From Parasedimentitalea huanghaiensis (lineage in GTDB: Bacteria; Pseudomonadota; Alphaproteobacteria; Rhodobacterales; Rhodobacteraceae), in assembly GCF_009753675.1 (NCBI RefSeq), contig NZ_WQLV01000001.1, positions 310,001 to 374,000 of the forward strand: 64,000 bases of DNA, written 5' to 3'. Below the pieces are notes generated by a model. It ran no database searches. It saw nothing but the letters and a program-made list of their open reading frames with translations, and was not told the origin of the DNA. Below are positions 8,743-13,433 of the stretch, in pieces (position 1 is the first letter of the stretch; the number at the start of each line of letters is the position of its first letter). The translations under genes were made by a program, and so were the position numbers.

Positions 8743-9636
8743 CTATTGCAGATCAAGGTATTCTAAGAACAAACGGACTGACGATGTCTCTGCTCGTGCA
8801 TTGGGGTAGATGCAAACATAGTCCTTTTTCATGGGGAGCGAGACGCTGGAGGGGGAGACCAATGAACCTGAAGAAAGAGCAGAGTTTACAAGAATTGAAG
8901 GTGCTAGAGCGATACCGGCTTCCTGTTTTGCAGCCGAAATTGCAAGCGACGTATCGCTCAGAACTAACCCAGGACTTGTGAGGGCTGCGCCGCCAGTGCC
9001 CGCTTCACGACGCCAGTCTAACCAGACCGGTTCGCTGGCGTAACTCGGGCCCCATTTGTTATGAATAAGCTTAGCGTCAGGAACATTGGTGAGCATTCCT
9101 TCAGGATCGGAGTGCTGTGCCCAAAATGACGGTGCACAGACCGGAATTGCAAAGTCAGAAAACAAGGCGGTTTGGCGGTATTCCGGATAGAACACCGAGC
9201 CAAATGTCAGACGAATATCAATCGCTTCTCGCTCGAAATCAATTGGATCTTCCTGCACACGTATATCTAAGCAGATACCCGTCTTGTCACTGAATCCTAG
9301 CGCTTTCGGGAGAAACCAAAGCTCAGACAGGGCAGGGAGTACACTGACCACCAACTGACGAGAGCGTTTGTTGCTGCGAACGATTTGGGCTGCATCAGAT
9401 AACTCGCTAAAGGCATGCGCAAGTTTCGGGTACATTTCCTCTCCTGCATCGGTCAGAGAGATGCGGTTTCCTTTGCGCAGGAAAAGCTTTTTACCCAAGT
9501 GATCTTCGAGACTTTTGACCTGCAAGCTGACGGCGGCGGAGCTGACGCCAAGTTCATCGCCTGCCAGCACAAAACTGCCGCATCTGGCGGCGACCTCAAA
9601 TGCTCGCAGTCCGTTCAATGAAGGTAGGTTTTGCAT
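8743..9636 (-). CDS. LysR family transcriptional regulator (GcvA-like)
   Basis: A 297-residue LysR-type activator/repressor. The N-terminal winged helix-turn-helix covers residues about 4-63 (LNGLRAFEVAARCGSF, GVSSAAVSLQVKSLEDHLG, LFLRKGNRISLTDAGE). A periplasmic-binding-protein-like effector domain fills the rest. The closest remembered relatives are GcvA-type regulators. It is transcribed away from the oxygenase/DddP-like/lyase operon, with 91 bases between the two starts. This divergent layout is typical for a LysR protein that controls its neighbour in response to the pathway's substrate or an intermediate. I could not settle on a single T-N11-A operator by eye in that gap. Confidence 0.93.
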   Translation of the reverse strand: MQNLPSLNGLRAFEVAARCGSFVLAGDELGVSSAAVSLQVKSLEDHLGKKLFLRKGNRISLTDAGEEMYPKLAHAFSELSDAAQIVRSNKRSRQLVVSVLPALSELWFLPKALGFSDKTGICLDIRVQEDPIDFEREAIDIRLTFGSVFYPEYRQTALFSDFAIPVCAPSFWAQHSDPEGMLTNVPDAKLIHNKWGPSYASEPVWLDWRREAGTGGAALTSPGLVLSDTSLAISAAKQEAGIALAPSILVNSALSSGSLVSPSSVSLPMKKDYVCIYPNARAETSSVRLFLEYLDLQ

Positions 9637-9727: not shown

Positions 9728-10519
9728 ATGAACCAGTTTATCGATCTTGAAAAATACCCATTGGACCGCCCGGACAGTGCGGCATATGCCAAATTGGTCG
9801 AAAAGTGTCAGGCTGACCTTGCCAAGGACGGAATGTTCAATCTGCCGGGTTTTTTAAAGTCTGGAGTGGCACAAGCTGCGGCAGATGCTGCCAAACCGGC
9901 AATGGACAACGAATCATTCCGGCATGCCCGGCGTCACAACGTCTATTTCAGAGACACGATGCCGGGTATCACCGATGACCACCCGGCAATGAAGAAAATT
10001 GAGACCGTGAACCACACACTCTGCGCCGACCAGTTGGAAGGTAATCCGGTGATTGATGTATATAAGTGGGCACCTTTTGCAGCGTTTCTGGCCGCAACCA
10101 AAGGCAAAGAGAAGCTATATCAGATGTCCGACAAAATGGCCTGCGTAAATGTGCAGGCGACCCGTGATGGCGAAGGGTTGAACTGGCATTTTGACCGGTC
10201 TGAATTCACCACAACGATCCTGCTTCAGGCCCCGCAAAAAGGCGGGCAGCTAGAATTTCGCAAAGACCTGCGTTCGGCTGATGATCAAAACTTTGACGGC
10301 GTAGCGGCGGTGTTGGCAGGAAACGACCCTGAAACCAAACAAATAATGCCCGAACCGGGAGCCCTGAATGTTTTTCGGGGTGTGAATACACCGCACCGTG
10401 TGGTTCCCGTAGAAGGGCCAACCGACCGCGTGATTGCCATCTTTTCCTTCTATGAACAACCCAACGTAGTCTTTTCAAGCGAGGAGCAGCGGGGATTCTA
10501 CGGGCGCTCAGTTGTTTGA
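9728..10519 (+). CDS. Fe(II)/2-oxoglutarate-dependent oxygenase, BesD/HalD-like
   Basis: The 263-residue protein resembles the family that includes the free-amino-acid halogenases BesD/HalD and related hydroxylases. The iron site is visible: H154-F155-D156 in LNWHFDRSEF and the distal H223 in TPHRVV, with R234 placed to bind 2-oxoglutarate. Halogenases of this family replace the aspartate with Gly or Ala to make room for chloride; here the Asp is present, so hydroxylation (or desaturation) is expected rather than chlorination. A good GGAGG (9716-9720) precedes the ATG. It is the first gene of a three-gene set with a DddP-like enzyme and a MIO-less lyase homologue, opposite a LysR gene. The substrate is unknown; a free amino acid or betaine is a reasonable guess. 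Confidence 0.8.
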   Translation: MNQFIDLEKYPLDRPDSAAYAKLVEKCQADLAKDGMFNLPGFLKSGVAQAAADAAKPAMDNESFRHARRHNVYFRDTMPGITDDHPAMKKIETVNHTLCADQLEGNPVIDVYKWAPFAAFLAATKGKEKLYQMSDKMACVNVQATRDGEGLNWHFDRSEFTTTILLQAPQKGGQLEFRKDLRSADDQNFDGVAAVLAGNDPETKQIMPEPGALNVFRGVNTPHRVVPVEGPTDRVIAIFSFYEQPNVVFSSEEQRGFYGRSVV

Positions 10520-10625
10520 CGCTCTCCGCTCGCCCTCTGAATATTCCGGTACGGACTACAACAAAACATGACGACAGGGTCTCCACATTATGGTGGGAGC
10601 CAGTACTTCATTACAGGATGTCACA

Positions 10626-11885
10626 ATGACTCAATCCCAGAGCGTCTTTAAAGATGACCGTAAGCTGACGTATTTGAATGGTGACGGCGCAGATAGACCG
10701 CTGATTAGCCCGGTGCCTCAGACAACGTTGGACAAAGCTCGTTCTTACCGCTTGGGACGTTTGCGAGAGCAAATGGCGGTGCATGATGTGGCAGGGCTTT
10801 TGCTCTATGACCCAATCAACATCCGATACGCATTTGACAGCTCAAACATGCAAGTCTGGACTGGTCATAATCCAGTTCGGTATGCTCTGATCCTAGCCGA
10901 CGGACCGGCGATCCTGTGGGAGTTTAAGGGATGTGAACATTTGAATGATGGCTTAGATGGTATTGACGAAATTCGTACTGCAGTCTCATGGATGTTCATG
11001 ACCAAGGGCGATAAGGCACCAACTGGCGTCAATATTTGGGCTGATGAAATTGCAGATGTTTTGCGTCAACATGGTGGCGGAAACACTCGCTTTGCAGCAG
11101 ATAAACTGGATGGCCCCGGTTTGCATGCTCTTGAAAATGCCGGTTTCACCTTTGTTGAGGGTGCAGAGCTTACCGAACGCGCCCGGTCTATCAAGTCAGT
11201 TGAAGAAATTGATTTGATGCGTTGGACAATCCGCGTTTGCGAAGCTGGTATGGCACGGATCTACGACCACTCTGTCCCTGGCGTTACCGAATGTGAACTC
11301 TGGGCTCATCTTCACTTTGAAAATGCACGTTCTGGCGGTGACTGGTTAGAAACCAAACTATTGGCTTGCGGACCGAACACTAACCCTTGGTACGCCGAGT
11401 GTTCCGATCGGATCTGTCAGAAAGGGGAAATGATTTCTTTCGACACTGACATGATCGGCCCATACGGCTATTGTGCGGACCTTTCGCGCAGTTGGACATG
11501 TGGCTATACGCCAATGAACAGCACGCAAAAACGGATATATTCAACGGCGTTGGAGCAAATCAATCACAACATGTCCATCCTAAGCCCGGGGATGAGTTTT
11601 GCCGAGTACAATGATAAGAGTTGGCGTATCCCTGAACAACATGCCGATTACCGTTATTCCCTTGCTGTACACGGGGTTGGGATGGCCGATGAATGGCCCG
11701 TAATACCTCTGCATGTAGATTTTGACGACACAGCTACTTCGGGGCAGATCGAACCCGGCATGGTGTTATGTGTCGAGAGCCTGGTTGCTGAGCAGGGATC
11801 CGAAAGCGTTAAGCTGGAAACGCAGGTTCTGATTACGGAATCTGGTTATGAAAGACTGGATAGTTTTCCGTGGGAAACCATTTGA
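10626..11885 (+). CDS. DddP-like M24-fold metalloenzyme (possible DMSP lyase or related C-S/C-N cleaving enzyme)
   Basis: A 419-residue creatinase/aminopeptidase-P-fold (M24) protein that matches my memory of DddP, the Roseobacter DMSP lyase, closely through the C-terminal half (for example RICQKGEMISFDTDMIG and HGVGMADEWP). The metal ligands of DddP all have counterparts: D273, D275, D285, H349, E384 and E398. The residue corresponding to the DddP catalytic aspartate is D355, the tyrosine five residues before the histidine ligand is Y344, and W255 in NPWYAEC is also kept. The N-terminal half is more divergent. Ectoine hydrolase (DoeA/EutD) and Xaa-Pro peptidases are other M24 relatives, so the substrate remains open. 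The start at 10626 is chosen over 10590 because an AGGA lies nine bases upstream and it fits the family's N-terminus. It is the second gene of the LysR-divergent operon. Confidence 0.75.
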   Translation: MTQSQSVFKDDRKLTYLNGDGADRPLISPVPQTTLDKARSYRLGRLREQMAVHDVAGLLLYDPINIRYAFDSSNMQVWTGHNPVRYALILADGPAILWEFKGCEHLNDGLDGIDEIRTAVSWMFMTKGDKAPTGVNIWADEIADVLRQHGGGNTRFAADKLDGPGLHALENAGFTFVEGAELTERARSIKSVEEIDLMRWTIRVCEAGMARIYDHSVPGVTECELWAHLHFENARSGGDWLETKLLACGPNTNPWYAECSDRICQKGEMISFDTDMIGPYGYCADLSRSWTCGYTPMNSTQKRIYSTALEQINHNMSILSPGMSFAEYNDKSWRIPEQHADYRYSLAVHGVGMADEWPVIPLHVDFDDTATSGQIEPGMVLCVESLVAEQGSESVKLETQVLITESGYERLDSFPWETI

Positions 11886-11930: not shown

Positions 11931-13433
11931 ATGGACAAAGTTTCCCACCTGCCGACCGGCGGTCCAATTGTGCTGAACGGGGTGTCTCTGACCTGCGAAC
12001 AGCTGGTTGAGGCGGTACAGCAGAAATCAAGAGTGACGTTTACGCAAGAAGCCAGACAGCGGATAAAAGAAGGTCGTGAGGTCGTACAGGAAGTCGTGGC
12101 CAGCGGTGTCCCCGGTTATGGGATCACCACTGGCGTCGGATCGCAAAAGGATTTCATGGTCGCAGCAGACGGTGTACTGGATTTTAACCGTCGACTGGCT
12201 CGGGCACATGCAACCCATGTCGGTGGTGCAGTGCTGCCAAAAAGCCGAGTCCGGGCTGCTTTGATAATCCTCGTCAATGAGTTTTCACTTGGTTTATCCG
12301 GTGTTTCGGAACCTTTGGTTCAATTGCTCACTGACAAGATCAACACCGCAAAAATGCCCGAGGTATCGTCGTACGGCACTGTGGGTGCGGCGGATCTCAT
12401 ACCGATGTCTCAGATCGCGAATTGGCTGCAAAGCACGCCGGAAGCTCAGAAACTTGGCATTCCCGGCCCAAAAGAGACGTTGTCTCTTATCAATACCAAC
12501 GCGATCACCCTGGCTACCGGAGCTGAAGTTCTGATGGAAGCGCGCTCGATCTTGGACTTGGCAAATCTGTCGTTGGCATTTTCGCTTGAAGCGTTTCGCG
12601 GTAATCTAGATTCAATTTCAGAACAGGTAAACCGTGCCCATCAACGTCGTGGGCAGGCGCAAGTCAGTGAGAAGGTGCGCGATCTTCTATGCAACAGTAA
12701 ACTTTGGAATCCGGATCAAGCCCGCCGCATTCAGGACCCGCTGAGTTTTCGTTGTGCATCGCAGATCCATGGTGCGCTGTGCGAGTTGCTCGACCGAGCG
12801 ATTGAGATTTGGGATCAAGAGCTGAATTCCGTAACAGACAATCCGATTGTCGATACTGTTGCTCAGTGTGTCCGCTCGCACGGCAATATGGATTCAACCC
12901 GCATGACTCTGGCGATTGATGGGTTACGGCAAGCCTTTGCCAAAACATTGGATATCTCTGGTGAGCGGCTCCACAAGCAACAATGGACCGAGTTTTCCGG
13001 ACTACCCACTGGTTTCGCCGATACCAATAGCCCGCTGGGCGGCGTGCAATTCTTGAATCTTGGTCATTTGGCAGCGTCCCTTATCACATCCACCAAGATA
13101 TGGGCCGCACCTTCGTTGCTTTTATCTGTAGGCCAACTCGCTGACGGAGTAGAAGATACCGCAGGTCATGCATTTCACTCGGTTGCCGATTTTGAACGTA
13201 TTCTTGAAGCTGCCCGTCAGGTTTTGACCATAGAAATCATAGTATCTGTCTGGGCAATCAACAAACGTGAGCTACCAGTGTCAACGCTGGGTGAAGGTCT
13301 ACGGGACTATGCTGCGAGAATTACCCCGTTATTGCCAATCGGGACTGAAGGAATGGATGTTTTTTCAATCGTACCGATCGTTGAAGCCCTGCGTAGTACC
13401 CCATGCAAAACTGAAATTCCATGTCAAGTTTGA
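11931..13433 (+). CDS. aromatic amino acid/histidine ammonia-lyase homologue lacking the MIO triad
   Basis: The 500-residue protein is a full-length member of the HutH/PAL superfamily by its landmarks: YGITTGVG (Y63, matching the conserved loop tyrosine), LSLINTNAITLA, QDPLSFRCASQIHGA, SVTDNPIVD, and HGN later. The segment that should read G-S-V-G-A-S-G-D-L reads G-T-V-G-A-A-D-L (residues 149-156): the serine is replaced by alanine and the glycine is missing, so the MIO electrophile cannot form by Ala-Ser-Gly cyclisation. The tyrosine of the QDPYSLRC motif is leucine here. The frame is otherwise open and undamaged, so this is not simple decay. It lies 45 bases after the DddP-like gene, in the same operon. 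It may be a scaffold, a binding protein, or an enzyme using another chemistry. Confidence 0.82.
   Translation: MDKVSHLPTGGPIVLNGVSLTCEQLVEAVQQKSRVTFTQEARQRIKEGREVVQEVVASGVPGYGITTGVGSQKDFMVAADGVLDFNRRLARAHATHVGGAVLPKSRVRAALIILVNEFSLGLSGVSEPLVQLLTDKINTAKMPEVSSYGTVGAADLIPMSQIANWLQSTPEAQKLGIPGPKETLSLINTNAITLATGAEVLMEARSILDLANLSLAFSLEAFRGNLDSISEQVNRAHQRRGQAQVSEKVRDLLCNSKLWNPDQARRIQDPLSFRCASQIHGALCELLDRAIEIWDQELNSVTDNPIVDTVAQCVRSHGNMDSTRMTLAIDGLRQAFAKTLDISGERLHKQQWTEFSGLPTGFADTNSPLGGVQFLNLGHLAASLITSTKIWAAPSLLLSVGQLADGVEDTAGHAFHSVADFERILEAARQVLTIEIIVSVWAINKRELPVSTLGEGLRDYAARITPLLPIGTEGMDVFSIVPIVEALRSTPCKTEIPCQV

Follow-up and report, generated by a model that had tools for sequence, protein, structure and literature searches.

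The window analysed here is a stretch of 64,000 nucleotides from Parasedimentitalea huanghaiensis, and within it lies a member of the PF00221 lyase family in which the residues that form the MIO cofactor are altered. The gene is preceded by a LysR-family regulator, an oxygenase and an M24 family enzyme, and the features of this cassette are as follows.

8743..9636, minus strand: LysR-family regulator, divergent from the oxygenase gene
9728..10519, plus strand: HalD-family 2OG-Fe(II) oxygenase, reading HxD at the site that is HxG in Halogenase B
10590..11885, plus strand: DddP-like M24 family enzyme (Pfam 103.3 bits), ending 45 nt before the lyase gene
11931..13433, plus strand: MIO-free PF00221 lyase of 500 amino acids (from frame, Pfam, alignment, tree and dN/dS)
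12375..12398, plus strand: GTVGAADL (residues 149-156) in place of GSVGASGDL, with Ser changed to Ala and Gly deleted
12732..12755, plus strand: QDPLSFRC (residues 268-275), with Leu in the HAL Tyr280 column and letters identical to those of ergothionase 6s7j

The lyase gene is a single uninterrupted frame, and the full-length protein with GTVGAADL and with Leu in place of Tyr that the first-pass annotation had described is indeed what the sequence encodes, the second site reading QDPLSFRC where the family has QDPYSLRC. Membership of PF00221 is clear (299.6 bits against a cut-off of 27.3, residues 20-458), while the score for the HutH equivalog TIGR01225 is 221.6 bits against a cut-off of 539.15. 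HAL residue numbers are given throughout according to the alignment with 1gkm and 1gkj, the latter being the Y280F mutant. The lyase resembles HutH in fold, in length and in the Tyr53, His83, Asn195, Arg283 and Glu414 columns, but differs in lacking both Ala-Ser-Gly and Tyr280 and in falling far under the TIGR01225 cut-off. In the alignment of homologues Ala154 occupies the HAL Ser143 column, the Gly that should follow is missing, and Leu271 occupies the Tyr280 column. MIO-dependent HAL, PAL and TAL enzymes contain Ala-Ser-Gly or Ala-Cys-Gly at the position where the lyase reads GAA-D. MIO is built from Ala-Ser-Gly (PMC12203737); with Ala for Ser and the Gly deleted, MIO therefore cannot form, as had been proposed, and judged by its sequence the lyase is unable to make the cofactor. 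Two further PF00221 members in the same genome (L001 and L002) read GSVGASGDL and keep both ASGD and the Tyr. One MIO-bearing paralogue is part of a hut row (L106), two genes from hutU, and the second is approximately 6 kb from a second hutU (L105:7751-16893).

To place the altered motif within the family we used an alignment of 67 rows, from which the duplicates L067, L097_0 and L070_0 were dropped and in which long frames were cut. The MIO tripeptide is absent from 43 of the 67 rows. In 40 of these 43 the Gly is deleted, and all 40, ergothionase included, fall on one side of a branch with a support of 99 in a quick tree of the 67 rows and 99/99 in a careful tree, for which 18 of the 67 were omitted as near copies, leaving 49 rows; the ergothionase row itself has a long branch and its placement was flagged as unsure by the tree tool. 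The lyase belongs to this MIO-free branch by its deleted Gly, its lack of Tyr280 and its position in the tree. Tyr occupies the 280 column in 22 of 24 rows that retain the MIO tripeptide, the remaining two having Cys for Ser, compared with 0 of the 43 rows without it. As Tyr280 is lost in every row that has lost MIO, the two changes seen in the lyase are one branch-wide change, and on the evidence of the alignment and trees the loss of both is an old trait of the whole branch, ergothionase included. A loss unique to this gene is therefore rejected. Loss of MIO in PF00221 was already known through ergothionase, and the lyase gene adds a new subfamily to this known kind. The joint loss of MIO and Tyr280 across the 67 rows offers a natural way of testing why HAL requires the cofactor.

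A second set of rows, reading GSVGY (L016, L020 and L097_1, the last at L097:13478-15112), lacks two to three residues as well as Tyr280. This group sits inside the MIO-bearing side of the tree and therefore represents a separate loss of the MIO motif. One of its members belongs to a hut cluster, where it is flanked by hutI and a BCCT gene.

The closest solved structure is the ergothionase of Treponema denticola (PDB 6s7j and 6s7q), reportedly the work of Maurer et al. in 2019. 6s7j is the best PDB match of the lyase by sequence (E 1.3e-42) and also ranks first in a fold search (E 1.1e-14, with ordinary HALs next at 9.9e-14) using a predicted model with a pLDDT of 64.5 and a pTM of 0.71, in which the loops around the MIO and Tyr columns are of low confidence. 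At the two altered sites ergothionase reads SSIGEG-DI and QDPLSFRC, and the lyase has in common with it the PF00221 fold, the absence of the MIO tripeptide, the QDPLSFRC letters, a GVG..KD motif after the Tyr53-type Tyr and a place on the same side of the branch. The lyase could on these grounds be an ergothionase proper, converting ergothioneine to thiourocanate and trimethylamine, but the two proteins are only 27% identical, their gene neighbours are not the same, and the branch holds many other subfamilies. They also differ at the Td Lys383 column: 22 of 25 other branch members have Lys there, but 14 of the 15 rows of the lyase's subfamily have His, including His379 of the lyase itself. The genome contains two urocanase (hutU) homologues, which score 687.8 and 668.7 bits for thiourocanate hydratase, both below its cut-off of 930. 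The His at position 379 and these two scores make an ergothionase less likely, and we regard this assignment as improbable.

Three other positions are strictly retained. Y63, R274 and E408, which stand in the HAL Tyr53, Arg283 and Glu414 columns, are invariant in all 15 subfamily rows. At the HAL His83 column 14 of the 15 rows have His, while 18 of 25 other branch members have Arg, including the hut-linked L090; since L090 and most other branch rows have Arg, this column is no pointer to histidine as a substrate.

The exact form of the motif varies with distance from the window. AAD is present in all nine rows of at least 71% identity (the window, L005-L008 and L041-L044), while a 61-63% relative from genome G016 reads SASD, five rows of 45-50% identity (L045, L046, L053, L054 and L086) read GAS-D, and the most distant subfamily row (L047, 37%) reads GMA-D. 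Not counted among the compared rows are two copies of the window (L003 and L004), two pieces from G016 (L009 and L052), the wide stretches L034-L038 and two duplicate records (L039 and L040). The sequence of states suggests that the Gly was likely lost first and the Ser later, in the lyase's own clade.

The cassette itself is conserved. Its four genes, for LysR, oxygenase, M24 enzyme and lyase, are grouped in the window as well as in G004, G002, G003 and G133, with a gap of 45 nt between the M24 and lyase genes in all five genomes, and G016 has all four genes in another order. Partial cassettes comprise M24 and lyase at the start of a contig (L041), oxygenase and lyase (L042), and LysR and lyase (L043), and in L036 the lyase occurs without cassette partners. 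The first-pass annotation had proposed asking whether AAD is fixed in a clade that shares the operon and had named intact ASG in homologues of the same operon as a finding that would count against it; AAD is fixed in the near clade, in all nine rows, and intact ASG is found in 0 of 10 lyases from the same cassette or its remnants, nine having AAD and G016 SASD.

The lyase gene is under purifying selection. The dN/dS values (Nei-Gojobori) against G004, G002 and G003 are 0.144, 0.089 and 0.086 for the lyase, 0.054, 0.043 and 0.046 for the M24 gene and 0.098, 0.072 and 0.061 for the oxygenase, while in the comparison with G133 dS is saturated and gives no ratio. The low dN/dS and the conserved cassette argue against decay of the lyase gene, and the earlier expectation of selection and not decay is in this respect upheld. 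The same annotation had gone further and taken the motif as a mark of selection on a new function; selection is evident, but the view that the loss marks a function of the lyase's own is not supported. A decayed gene would find some support in G016, where the lyase has a broken frame in the assembly, split over two frames (L038:9429-11014) with the M24, oxygenase and LysR genes intact alongside. Against decay or a sequencing error in the window stand the open frame, the dN/dS of 0.09-0.14 and the AAD read in 9/9 near rows, which makes sequencing error very unlikely. With the motif state conserved in separate assemblies we have set both aside as highly improbable. The lyase is probably a working enzyme and not a broken gene, going by its place in a cofactor-free branch that includes ergothionase.

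The missing MIO residues, the place in the MIO-free branch, the purifying selection, the cassette and the co-occurrence across genomes are results of the comparisons; the activity of the lyase, its leaving group, its substrate and the order of steps we infer as follows. In HAL, MIO activates the substrate before ammonia departs. The lyase would most likely catalyse a beta-elimination whose leaving group is a quaternary amine from the outset, namely trimethylamine from an N-alpha-trimethylated amino acid, or betaine. A quaternary nitrogen would lack the lone pair needed for an attack on MIO and would depart easily, and as such a group leaves unaided, MIO and Tyr280 would be dispensable. An enzyme that expels trimethylammonium could thus drop both while keeping the Tyr53, Arg283 and Glu414 columns. 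Our preferred reading is that the lyase is an active member of the MIO-free branch that eliminates a quaternary amine from a betaine, to which we give a probability of roughly 55%. The loss of the parent family's cofactor might instead indicate a pseudoenzyme with a binding or regulatory role. However, ergothionase functions without MIO and releases trimethylamine (PMC13405746), and Y63, R274 and E408 are kept throughout the subfamily. Catalysis without MIO is more likely than a new, non-enzymatic role, and we consider a pseudoenzyme quite unlikely.

Support for elimination of a quaternary amine comes from the gene neighbours of relatives. The frame of L046, a 46% relative in stretch L070, starts 1 nt after hutU in a hutI-hutH-hutG-hutU row with hutF divergent. 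L090, from another MIO-free subfamily, lies in a hut cluster (stretch L097) with a hutU of 1013.2 bits, which as a thiourocanate hydratase scores 682.5 bits (cut-off 930); next to L090 is an OpuAC binding protein, and the cluster also includes a BCCT transporter. The L087 lyase (stretch L095) is flanked by OpuAC and a ProV-like ATPase, and for the L047 lyase (stretch L071) MTTB lies immediately upstream, with a Rieske oxygenase of weak similarity to GbcA downstream. MTTB is also found 1.5 kb from the M24 gene in L038, and in L075 a gene that weakly matches MTTB (26%) is 4 kb away from the lyase. Genes for hut, MTTB, OpuAC or BCCT proteins occur at 7 of 31 lyase loci and in 0 of 40 control stretches (Fisher 0.002), the controls being arbitrary 20-kb stretches from the same genomes; as the families were chosen after viewing the loci and the query proteins were partly taken from them, with five of the 31 loci from or near the window's genus, this count is a guide and not a clean test. 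The other 24 of the 31 loci show none of these families, and two loci carry the hut link of MIO-free lyases. Rieske genes occur at 1 of 31 lyase loci and in 2 of 40 controls. Ornithine cyclodeaminase/mu-crystallin genes lie beside MIO-free lyases in L074, L076, L083 and L095, that is at 4 of 31 lyase loci compared with 1 of 40 controls, the latter a weak match.

For the substrate our best single guess is hercynine (histidine betaine), which would yield urocanate and trimethylamine. We offer this tentatively, because of the hut and betaine-transport neighbours in relatives, the two hutU genes and a PF10017 methyltransferase; neither a hut gene nor a betaine transporter is present in the lyase's own cassette. 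The genome encodes one PF10017 protein, but this family also has matches in an E. coli control genome and for that reason supports hercynine synthesis weakly. The substrate might also be another aromatic or oxidised betaine.

The partners of the lyase suggest what else the cassette might do. The M24 protein scores 402.8 and 402.4 bits in two scans for the DddP equivalog NF043017, under its cut-off of 600, while a true DddP is encoded elsewhere in the genome (910.8 bits, C11:726191), and the neighbour is therefore a paralogue. It shares the M24 family with DddP and, in an alignment with 4rzy, keeps the columns of what we take to be the DddP metal ligands and catalytic Asp and Tyr. A role as a DddP-type DMSP lyase was lowered in our ranking because a true DddP exists elsewhere. 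The oxygenase matches the Pfam family HalD (45.9 bits, cut-off 26), as do HalD/BesD-type 2OG enzymes, but has HxD where Halogenase B has HxG. It is presumably a hydroxylase on account of the HxD, and a halogenase was likewise lowered for this reason.

Orthologues of the M24 enzyme (at least 57% identity) follow the MIO-free lyase across genomes G000-G060, being present in 8 of 9 genomes with the lyase and 2 of 52 without it, or in 5 of 5 and 2 of 49 genera, in a tally for which the presence lists were compiled by hand and the lyase motif was checked at fetched loci. This co-occurrence, together with neighbours that are a DddP-like enzyme and an oxygenase, would also suit a lyase whose substrate is unrelated to betaines and which expels some other group, such as a sulfonium or one that the 2OG oxygenase has put in place. 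The methylated-amine context of the relatives speaks against this alternative, which we consider doubtful. With the quaternary amine as the leaving group, both the oxygenase and the M24 enzyme would have as substrate this onium compound or one related to it. It is possible, though speculative, that the cassette is an undescribed pathway of marine Rhodobacteraceae in which lyase, M24 enzyme and 2OG hydroxylase cooperate on an onium amino acid, either histidine betaine or a related oxidised compound. In such a pathway the MIO-free lyase, with its HAL fold, and the DddP-like M24 protein would be unrelated to each other but both related to enzymes that break carbon-onium bonds.

Among open-licence PMC papers we found none on a hercynine lyase, on the LysR/oxygenase/M24/lyase cassette or on the wider MIO-free branch, and no MIO-free lyase other than ergothionase. 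If the proposed reading is correct, PF00221 would have a broad second chemistry, the cofactor-free elimination of quaternary amines, with ergothionase and a hut-linked hercynine lyase as two examples. Many of the genes scored as histidine ammonia-lyases would then be MIO-free lyases of methylated amino acids, and these could be flagged by checking two positions, a deleted Gly of ASG and a Tyr280 column that is not Tyr. Bacteria would also have an added trimethylamine-releasing route and a fate for hercynine.

Matches to the lyase were obtained in 12 of 394 genomes of the family (E 1e-40 or better), 16 of 385 of the class (E 1e-36), 10 of 398 of the phylum (E 1e-42) and 5 of 390 of the order (E 1e-70), and within the genus the gene is patchy (5 of 8 genomes). 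The partner genes also occur apart from the lyase. The M24 and oxygenase genes are adjacent, away from the lyase, in G317, G188, G011, G045 and G043, and are 0.9 kb apart, likewise away from it, in G031. MTTB is found in a frame running past the M24 gene in L185 and 3 kb from a relative of the oxygenase in L186. A distant MIO-free lyase, L058, adjoins a DddP-like M24 gene 48% identical to that of the window (L085:5400-9523), which shows that the M24-lyase pairing recurs in another lyase subfamily. The relative in L186 (L186:3227-10119) is 50% identical to the cassette oxygenase and stands in a row with MTTB, an aldehyde dehydrogenase, a DHDPS-family gene, a GntR regulator and an FAD oxidase that resembles an operon for betaine or imino-acid breakdown.
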